Shown piece by piece: positions 36,514 through 37,812 of a stretch of DNA of 64,000 nt. Origin of the DNA: an uncultured Burkholderiales bacterium (GTDB lineage Bacteria; Pseudomonadota; Gammaproteobacteria; Burkholderiales; Burkholderiaceae_C); contig CAIJQQ010000049.1 of NCBI GenBank assembly GCA_903822825.1, positions 1 through 64,000 on the forward strand, written 5' to 3'. A model generated the notes under the pieces. It saw only the letters and a list, made by a program, of their open reading frames with translations. It was not told the origin of the DNA and did no database searches. Position 1 is the stretch's first letter; each line of letters opens with the position of its first letter. Position numbers and translations under genes: made by a program.

Positions 36514-36525
36514 AAGGCCGCGTGG

Positions 36526-36531
36526 TATATT
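36526..36531 (+). promoter_or_regulatory. -10-like hexamer of the DAHP synthase leader
   Basis: tatatt lies seven bases before the ATG of the leader peptide at 36539. Transcription would start at or next to that ATG, giving a leaderless leader peptide. Confidence 0.5.
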
Positions 36532-36538
36532 CAACGCC

Positions 36539-36604
36539 ATGTTTAACGCCATTGCTTTTTATTTTTGGTTCTCAGTCCCCGGCGGACGAGAGGCGAGCGC
36601 TTAA
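36539..36604 (+). CDS. Aromatic-rich leader peptide before DAHP synthase
   Basis: A 21-codon frame reads M-F-N-A-I-A-F-Y-F-W-F-S-V-P-G-G-R-E-A-S-A then TAA. Five consecutive aromatic codons (Phe-Tyr-Phe-Trp-Phe, 36557-36571) sense all the phenylalanine, tyrosine and tryptophan supply, the end products of the pathway that the next gene starts. The frame sits 87 bases before the DAHP synthase ATG and just before a terminator hairpin, the layout of a transcription attenuator. It is too short for ordinary gene calling. The peptide itself need have no function beyond ribosome stalling. I see it directly; the regulatory role is inferred from the design known for trp, phe and his leaders. Confidence 0.82.
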   Translation: MFNAIAFYFWFSVPGGREASA

Positions 36605-36661
36605 GCACCCGAACATCTCGACACACACCGCCGGAGCCGCCAAAGCCCGGCGGTTTTTTTT
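36579..36661 (+). promoter_or_regulatory. Attenuator: antiterminator and terminator before DAHP synthase
   Basis: The terminator is accgccgg (36627-36634), a 12-base loop, ccggcggt (36647-36654) and eight Ts. Its left arm can instead pair with ccggcgg at 36579-36585, inside the leader reading frame just after the aromatic codons; cgaga (36587-36591) with tctcg (36616-36620) lengthens this alternative. A ribosome that reaches the stop codon at 36602 would cover the alternative arm and let the terminator form. A ribosome stalled at the aromatic codons would leave it free for the antiterminator. Confidence 0.8.
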
Positions 36662-36690
36662 CACCTGTTTTTTCAATTGAGGAGTCCACG

Positions 36691-37812
36691 ATGAACGCCA
36701 AAACCACTGCCCCTGAGAGCTGGTATCCAAATGCCGCCGACCGCAAAGGCCAAACCGACGACGAACGCATCAAGGACATCACCGTGCTCCCACCTCCAGA
36801 ACATTTGATCCGCTTCTTTCCGATTGCAGGCACGGCTACGGAAACGCTGATCGCTCAAACCCGCCAATCCATCCAGCGCATCGTGCACGGCAAAGACGAC
36901 CGTTTGCTGGTCATCATTGGGCCTTGCTCCATACACGATCCGGCTGCGGCGCTGGATTACGCTCGACGCTTGAAGCCCCTGCGTGAAAAATACGCCGACA
37001 CGCTGGAGATCGTGATGCGCGTGTATTTCGAAAAACCCCGCACCACTGTGGGCTGGAAGGGCCTGATCAACGACCCCTACCTGGACGAGAGCTGCCGCAT
37101 CGATGAAGGTCTGCGCATCGCCCGCCAGCTGCTGATCGAGATCAACCGCCAAGGCCTGCCCGCGGGCAGCGAGTTTCTGGATGTGATCTCGCCTCAGTAC
37201 ATCGGCGACCTGATCAGCTGGGGCGCCATCGGTGCGCGCACCACCGAAAGCCAGGTGCACCGCGAGCTGGCTTCAGGCCTGTCGGCGCCCATTGGTTTCA
37301 AAAACGGCACCGACGGCAATATCAAGATTGCCACCGACGCGATCCAGGCGGCAGCCCGCGGCCACCACTTTTTGTCGGTCCACAAGAACGGCCAAGTTGC
37401 CATCGTGCAGACGCATGGCAACCCCGACTGCCATGTGATTTTGCGTGGCGGAAAAGCCCCCAATTACGACGCAGGCAGCGTGGCTGCAGCGTGCAAGGAA
37501 CTCGAAGCCGCCAAGCTGCCCGCCACCTTGATGGTGGACTGCAGCCATGCCAACAGCAGCAAAAAGCACGAGCGTCAGATCGACGTGGCCAAAGACATTG
37601 CAGCGCAGATCAGTGGCGGTTCACGTCAGGTGTTTGGCGTCATGGTCGAAAGCCATCTGGTGGACGGCGCCCAGAAGTTCACGCCCGGCAAAGACGATGC
37701 GACGAAGCTGGCCTATGGCCAAAGCATCACCGACGCCTGCATTGGGTGGGACGACAGCGCAGGCGTGTTGCAGGTGCTGTCGGAGGCGGTAAAGGCACGT
37801 CGCGCACGCTGA
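36691..37812 (+). CDS. aroG: 3-deoxy-7-phosphoheptulonate synthase, class I (AroG/F/H type)
   Basis: The 373-residue enzyme joins phosphoenolpyruvate and erythrose 4-phosphate, the first step of aromatic amino acid synthesis. Typical motifs are IIGPCSIHDPAAAL (about 70), MRVYFEKPRTTVGWKGLINDP, EFLDVISPQYIGDLISWGAIGARTTESQVHRE (about 170), GFKNGTDGN, and DCSHANSSKKH. Ser, His and Glu metal ligands typical of class I are in place. The frame is open further upstream, but the ATG at 36691 has a gagg ribosome site, lies past the terminator and gives the usual length. Which end product inhibits the enzyme cannot be read from here, so the symbol stands for the family. Confidence 0.93.
   Translation: MNAKTTAPESWYPNAADRKGQTDDERIKDITVLPPPEHLIRFFPIAGTATETLIAQTRQSIQRIVHGKDDRLLVIIGPCSIHDPAAALDYARRLKPLREKYADTLEIVMRVYFEKPRTTVGWKGLINDPYLDESCRIDEGLRIARQLLIEINRQGLPAGSEFLDVISPQYIGDLISWGAIGARTTESQVHRELASGLSAPIGFKNGTDGNIKIATDAIQAAARGHHFLSVHKNGQVAIVQTHGNPDCHVILRGGKAPNYDAGSVAAACKELEAAKLPATLMVDCSHANSSKKHERQIDVAKDIAAQISGGSRQVFGVMVESHLVDGAQKFTPGKDDATKLAYGQSITDACIGWDDSAGVLQVLSEAVKARRAR

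Follow-up and report, generated by a model that had tools for sequence, protein, structure and literature searches.

The question raised by this locus is how the gene for a class I DAHP synthase is controlled, and what is made of the short, aromatic-rich reading frame and the alternative hairpins that precede it. The gene lies in a stretch of 64,000 nucleotides (the window) of contig CAIJQQ010000049.1 from an uncultured Burkholderiales bacterium. Our analysis indicates that the element in front of it is very probably a ribosome-mediated transcription attenuator of DAHP synthase. Its parts are collected in Table 1.

Table 1. Features of the DAHP synthase leader region, in positions of the window; kcal/mol values are computed folding energies.
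Feature	Position	Strand	Remarks
Cyclase-family gene, PF04199	35560-36513		between tldD and the leader
Extended -10 promoter element TGG-TATATT	36523-36531	+	promoter-like; ends 7 nt before the leader ATG
Leader peptide ORF MFNAIAFYFWFSVPGGREASA	36539-36604	+	21 codons, ATG 36539 to TAA 36604; no Shine-Dalgarno
Control codons Phe-Tyr-Phe-Trp-Phe	36557-36571	+	read in the leader ORF
Segment 1 TCTCAGTCC	36570-36578	+	pairs with 36584-36591 GGACGAGA as 1:2 hairpin, -9.3 kcal/mol
Segment 2 CCGGCGGACGAGAGG	36579-36593	+	5' strand of antiterminator; genus pi 0.000; covaries with segment 3
Segment 3	36616-36634	+	TCTCG box 36616-36620 and ACCGCCGG 36627-36634
Extra hairpin, terminator loop with segment 4	36635-36655	+	-11.2 kcal/mol, computed
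Segment 4 CCGGCGGT and T-run	36647-36661	+	3' half of intrinsic terminator; arm 36647-36654
Shine-Dalgarno AGGAG of the DAHP synthase gene	36680-36684	+	read directly
Class I DAHP synthase (AroF/G/H family)	36691-37812	+	TIGR00034, 541.7 bits (cut-off 173.2); PF00793

The first-pass annotation of this DNA had described a 21-codon frame with Phe-Tyr-Phe-Trp-Phe in a row, a terminator at 36627-36661 whose left arm can instead pair with 36579-36585, a second pairing of 36587-36591 with 36616-36620 that lengthens the alternative hairpin, and a design like that of the trp and phe leaders. All of this was borne out, and the coordinates hold. More specifically, the terminator pairs the left arm ACCGCCGG with CCGGCGGT at 36647-36654, continues in T residues to 36661 and has a computed energy of -15.2 kcal/mol. 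The antiterminator (2:3) joins CCGGCGG (36579-36585) to CCGCCGG (36628-36634) and CGAGA (36587-36591) to TCTCG (36616-36620), for a total of -17.4 kcal/mol. Segment 3 has two partners, either segment 2 or, through its 3' half, segment 4, and the 1:2 hairpin locks up segment 2. This hairpin and the probably leaderless start described below are new; the first-pass annotation had missed both. The defining features of a trp-type attenuator at the sequence level are all present, namely a predicted leader ORF, an intrinsic terminator, an exclusive antiterminator that shares an arm with it, the 1:2 hairpin, and control codons for Phe, Tyr and Trp, to which the regulated pathway leads, with DAHP synthase downstream.

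A chance run of T-rich codons was rejected as the source of the leader frame, since five consecutive aromatic codons in a short ORF arose in only 13 of 4000 dinucleotide shuffles of 36514-36690 and the run is conserved across relatives. The leader ORF is also the sole short ORF with five consecutive aromatic codons on either strand of the window. Across 68 independent nearest pairs of elements, single-base differences in the aromatic codons were synonymous in 52 cases and nonsynonymous in 23, and 53 of the 75 fell on the third position. At the level of sequence comparison, this pattern shows the leader frame to be under coding constraint.

The element was then followed through other DAHP synthase loci, with an upstream ORF carrying at least five aromatics in eight codons counted as an aromatic leader. 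Such a leader was found at 30 of 30 genus loci (window included; the best 30 of 58 same-genus genomes with a match), at 88 of 88 family loci (the top-ranked new upstreams from 149 family genomes with a match), at 63 of 80 loci from named genomes (the best 80 of 588 candidates, with L052 lacking upstream sequence) and at 22 of 67 order loci (new upstreams from 120 order genomes, 33 of which gave no match at 1e-110). The ORF, the terminator arms and the segment 2 core occurred together at 30 genus, 83 family, 60 named and 19 order loci, and one of the 22 order matches (L242), which has no terminator arms, looks like chance. The genus has a second DAHP synthase, about 56% identical to the first, and 20 upstreams of this paralog were scored as a control; none reached five in eight, and the best had four in eight.

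The leaders differ in wording between groups. In Burkholderia and Caballeronia they mostly read MSAKFYFYFFW(Y/H)L(K/R)PLADREG, Oxalobacteraceae have forms such as MHSFIFFTGYFYFSDSNPKAVE, and a Xanthomonas locus (L105) carries MNANRSFYFWYYGFPMPLAEEGVRSP before its DAHP synthase. Within the named set, the search gave no leader for the Polynucleobacter loci (L057, L059, L061), for two of the three Cupriavidus loci, for those of Thauera, Azoarcus, Rhodocyclus, Chitinimonas, Vibrio and Enterovibrio, or for three MAG loci labelled Planctomycetota, Verrucomicrobiia and Gemmataceae. At the three Polynucleobacter loci and at a Polynucleobacter-like one (L142), all without leader, the DAHP synthase ATG by eye closely follows a TTAAAAT box; there the DAHP synthase gene itself may be leaderless.

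In total, 62 of 267 upstreams had no aromatic ORF. The remaining 205 elements include some genomes twice (L140/L169, L141/L228), so the counts below use 179 distinct sequences, and 11 of the 205 lack an anchor and were left out. A stricter terminator finder missed 16 of the 205 and misplaced some with long loops, and was replaced by a motif-anchored one. The latter placed terminator arms in 201 of 205 elements and the segment 2 core in 194, although it needs a GG[CT]GG or GACGG core, which makes the invariance of the core columns partly a matter of construction. The MAFFT alignment used for covariation does not itself rely on the core as an anchor, but all 39 of its rows came from elements detected by the core-requiring finder.

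Within the genus, pairwise diversity is low where the attenuator model places its parts. It amounts to 0.244 in the flank before the -10 box and 0.190 after the terminator, compared with 0.007 in segment 1 and 0.000 in segment 2, in the TCTCG box and in the arms of segments 3 and 4; the spacer behind the TCTCG box reaches 0.168. Fourfold sites of the DAHP synthase gene differ on average by 0.34 within the genus (406 of 435 pairs). The antiterminator is the only structure in which the TCTCG box is paired, so the invariance of this box favours 2:3. Positions 36594-36615, the end of the leader ORF plus 11 nt, are nearly invariant as well (pi 0.025), though unpaired in the attenuator model.

Taken by itself, the fold of this one leader argues little (z -1.69, with 13 of 200 shuffles folding equally well); the case is carried by conservation and not by one sequence. 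Among 39 representatives below 80% identity, the antiterminator 2:3 has 10 cells with double changes and 95.3% of its cells paired, against 17-65% in slid registers, and its covariation score was reached by none of 500 shuffles. The corresponding values for the terminator 3:4 are 16 double-change cells, 95.2% paired and again none of 500 shuffles. Other statistics are less striking: 18 (2:3) and 16 (3:4) of 500 shuffles have at least as many pairs with a double change, and pair types are no more numerous than in shuffles, of which 499 and 500 of 500, respectively, reach the observed value. The most telling group consists of six of the 179 distinct sequences, in which segment 2 reads CCGACGG and segment 3 CCGTCGG while segment 4 is still CCGGCGG, giving an A-U pair in the antiterminator and a G-U pair in the terminator.

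Strands were also exchanged between the representatives. By energy, own pairs of the 1:2 stem beat swapped ones with z -3.5, and those of the 5' part of 2:3 with z -3.7, none of 300 permutations being as good in either case. The effect on the longest contiguous Watson-Crick run is smaller (17 of 300 permutations reach the observed value for 1:2, 9 of 300 for the 5' part of 2:3). Segment 3 pairs better than 95% of shuffles in 145 of 189 cases, and when the whole segment was swapped between species the native version beat the average of the swaps in only 112 of 189, a weak test because the core is nearly invariant and a whole-arm swap costs little. The conservation of the short frame and of the two stems in relatives, on which the first-pass annotation had staked its proposal, was thus examined directly: frame, aromatic codons and both mutually exclusive stems are conserved and covarying. 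These alignments show the anatomy, conservation, covariation and coding constraint expected of the predicted attenuator.

The -10 element of the window ends so close to the leader ATG that the transcription start is predicted at or beside this codon. The same geometry recurs in relatives. Of the 179 distinct elements, 136 have a -10-like hexamer that ends 6-8 nt before the leader start codon, in 128 cases with a TGN extension, and the shuffled-upstream control gives 10; in the family set the figures are 68 of 77 distinct elements versus 1. A Shine-Dalgarno-like 4-mer precedes the leader in 1 of the 179 distinct elements and in none of the 77 in the family set, and it precedes 74 of 120 DAHP synthase starts. 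Because the leader starts 6-8 nt behind a -10 box and has no Shine-Dalgarno-like word, its mRNA is probably leaderless. Judged by eye, the likely -10 box of the Burkholderia- and Massilia-type loci inspected is shifted upstream by about 30-40 nt, which makes the leaderless form look like a trait of the Comamonadaceae-like set. A simple pattern scan reported neither promoter nor terminator here (loop limit of the scan 8, terminator loop 12).

These data also bear on the simpler reading that the terminator merely ends transcription of the upstream gene and that the short frame is accidental. Such an arrangement would suit a terminator that sits between two same-strand genes, with tldD in the flank of 28 of 30 genus loci. 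It leaves without a role, however, the antiterminator strand and the TCTCG box, both conserved, and is at odds with the promoter-like box at a fixed distance from the leader start, with the coding constraint and with the covariation of 2:3 and 1:2. We rejected a plain terminator on account of the promoter-like box, the codons and the conserved antiterminator, and consider it hardly credible.

For the attenuator, the folding calculations point to a switch set by the ribosome. The minimum free energy structure of the free full leader is 2:3 and not the terminator; the free leader therefore prefers 2:3 at equilibrium, and the off state would depend on ribosome position and timing. RNA folded behind a stalled ribosome adopts 2:3, RNA folded behind a ribosome at the stop codon adopts the terminator, and RNA folded before segment 3 is made adopts 1:2. 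The spacing is kept across elements: in 172 of 179 there are 8-17 nt between the end of the last aromatic codon and the GGCGG core, and the stop codon lies 1-29 nt behind this core in all 179. The edge of a ribosome lies about 12-13 nt beyond the start of its A-site codon. With this edge, a stall at codons 8-10 of the window leader covers segment 1 wholly or partly and leaves segment 2 free or nearly free; once at the stop codon, the ribosome hides a large part of segment 2.

The proposed course of events is as follows. The RNA would start at or beside the leader AUG, as the promoter geometry suggests, and the ribosome would load without a Shine-Dalgarno sequence. A shortage of tRNA charged with Phe, Tyr or Trp would stall the ribosome in the aromatic codons, where it covers segment 1, so that segment 2 is free, 2:3 forms in place of the terminator, and transcription reads through. 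When the run is translated fast, the ribosome would reach the stop codon close behind segment 2 and mask it; should the ribosome leave early, the 1:2 hairpin would hold segment 2 instead. With segment 2 masked or held, segment 3 would pair with segment 4 and transcription would end before the gene. We infer stalling, masking, termination and a response to each of the amino acids from this arrangement.

Which amino acids are sensed is suggested by the codon content. Leader peptides in the 179 distinct elements have 18-32 codons (median 24), and the best 8-codon stretch contains on average 4.29 Phe, 1.68 Tyr and 0.83 Trp. Sensing of all three aromatic amino acids would be consistent with the presence of Tyr in the run of 172 and of Trp in the run of 145 of these elements, above expectation for incidental codons. 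The attenuator could, however, work and sense mainly Phe, perhaps Tyr, with the Trp codon being incidental. The excess of Phe argues for this, as does the loss of Trp, which is missing in 34 of 179 elements and replaced at three genus loci (L007, L021, L023), and the Corynebacterium AroR leader is said to respond to Phe and not to Tyr. We hold such a Phe-weighted sensor to be a real possibility, at somewhat less than even chances. At two loci (L040, L172), the run has His codons in place of several aromatic ones (RYHFWHFH, FYFWHFH), as though the leader also sensed histidine.

Two additions to cis control by attenuation were considered. First, the terminated RNA of about 120 nt might also act in trans, as a small RNA or as the source of an aromatic-rich peptide. 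The leaderless geometry resembles that of rnTrpL, and 36594-36615, unpaired in the cis model, is nearly invariant; this stretch is, on the other hand, partly coding, and a need for ribosome release or for pausing of RNA polymerase may account for its conservation. We judge the trans role unlikely. Second, segment 1 might pair with the Shine-Dalgarno sequence of the gene and add a translational layer, as in the minimum free energy fold of 36526-36690, which pairs the stretch around 36566-36576 with the AGGAG region. Since the 1:2 pairing already accounts for segment 1, this layer appears more doubtful still.

The window's own version of the attenuator has several peculiarities. The usual run in the genus is longer, FYFFYFWF before SVPGGREASA, and the window is nine bases shorter. 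Its promoter and first codons, too, are unlike those usual in the genus, and of the 30 genus loci only the window's own was found to have the PF04199 cyclase gene in its flank; insertion of the cyclase gene may therefore have replaced both the leader promoter and the first codons. The terminator loop reads AGCCGCCAAAGC in the window and usually AGCCCCAAAGC in genus relatives, a change that makes possible a second, terminator-like hairpin with segment 4. Folding of the remainder gives -10.6 in the window versus a median of -3.0 in 179 elements. This extra hairpin is the strongest of its kind among the 179; the sole lower value (L136) stems from a mis-set anchor with the whole terminator included. 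According to the model, it might form beside 2:3, weaken antitermination and lower read-through at this locus.

The breadth of the element was assessed with a covariance model built from the 39 representatives. The window's genome has one strong full-length match (E 1.5e-17); the other four (E up to 1) either are partial or have an E above 0.6. A single match per genome was found in 27 of 38 relatives. Of the 23 same-genus genomes searched, with the window's counted, 22 have the element. At class level, 17 of 274 genomes match at 1e-3, and those with values below 1e-11 are confined to the window's family (3) and one further family, f63 (2), probably Xanthomonadaceae to judge from its resemblance to the Xanthomonas locus L105. 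At phylum level, 20 of 200 genomes match at 1e-5, 12 of them outside the window's class and 11 of those at full length. All 14 matches inspected (11 from outside the class, two order-level and one from f63) precede a DAHP-synthase-like ORF, and the leaders at all 11 loci outside the class carry runs such as YFWYFSY, FFWYSFY and YWYF. At these outside loci (L317-L327), the terminator stem is closed by G-C (GCCGCC...GGCGGC) and not by A-U, except at L320.

A known Rfam family was rejected, as no family reaches its cut-off in the window or in relatives. For the window, a search of Rfam 15 down to E 5 gave two models and no other, CC0196 with 15.8 bits and one for a CRISPR repeat with 20.5 bits, each against a cut-off of 35; 11 relatives gave no match at gathering score. 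CC0196, which overlaps 36599-36655, was followed up and set aside: at E 0.01 it matches 10 of 100 phylum genomes, the cut-off is passed in none of the 100, and the window's own genome has no match. In 14 further loci searched down to E 5, Phe_leader (RF01859) appeared at the element in six, with 24.7-26.5 bits against a cut-off of 55; such weak matches fit a shared design and not membership. A 'Burkholderiales-1' motif, listed in PMC2864571, is known to us from that source by name alone.

DAHP synthase is the gate of the shikimate pathway. According to the available text of PMC11802643, its expression control on record consists of TyrR and TrpR in E. coli and AroR in Corynebacterium. Being present in Comamonadaceae, Burkholderia relatives, Oxalobacteraceae, Xanthomonas and further proteobacteria, the element would give a default control model for many genomes. 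It would also offer a handle for aromatic-product engineering and a natural setting in which to study the weighting of three amino acids by a single leader, and its probable leaderless start would add a case for initiation on attenuator RNAs. A far wider reading would make it an old attenuator family across Pseudomonadota groups, a leaderless triple aromatic sensor and the main expression control of shikimate entry where the cell makes no use of TyrR-type repression, whose terminated RNA is a small leaderless mRNA that also acts in trans; taken as a whole, we regard this as improbable.

In the classical attenuators trpL and pheL, control codons in a short leader and alternative stems govern a terminator before a biosynthetic gene. 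The window element shares control codons, alternative stems and the position of the terminator; the difference is that trpL and pheL each read one amino acid and serve terminal-branch genes. The ilvGMEDA leader is read by several amino acids of one pathway family. It is thus multivalent, as the window's leader is predicted to be, but for branched-chain amino acids. In the text of the cited sources available to us, trpL and pheL are treated as E. coli attenuators alongside control of the E. coli DAHP synthases by TyrR and TrpR (PMC11802643), and the ilvGMEDA operon of E. coli is mentioned by name (PMC1183508).

For the start of the RNA, the closest parallel is rnTrpL of Sinorhizobium meliloti. 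The accessible parts of PMC7298713 and PMC10117765 describe it as the trpE attenuator with a 5' end at the ATG of trpL, and report action in trans of rnTrpL and peTrpL. It resembles the element described here in transcription attenuation and in an RNA beginning with the leader AUG, predicted here from promoter geometry, and it differs in its Trp codons, its trpE target and the reported trans action.

For the regulated gene, the parallel lies in another phylum. In the open PMC literature (subscription papers lay outside the scope), Corynebacterium AroR was the only DAHP synthase attenuator found, and none was found for this group. As far as the available portions of PMC11802643 and PMC4046766 go, the AroR leader of Corynebacterium glutamicum aroF carries Phe-Tyr-Phe, the only codons named, and responds to Phe and not to Tyr. 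The two systems share an aromatic-codon leader peptide and ribosome stalling before a DAHP synthase gene, predicted in our case, and are likened by this shared logic alone. What we describe here is very probably a widespread trp-type attenuator, apparently unlisted in Rfam at its cut-offs and predicted to act before an enzyme whose attenuation was already known from Corynebacterium.
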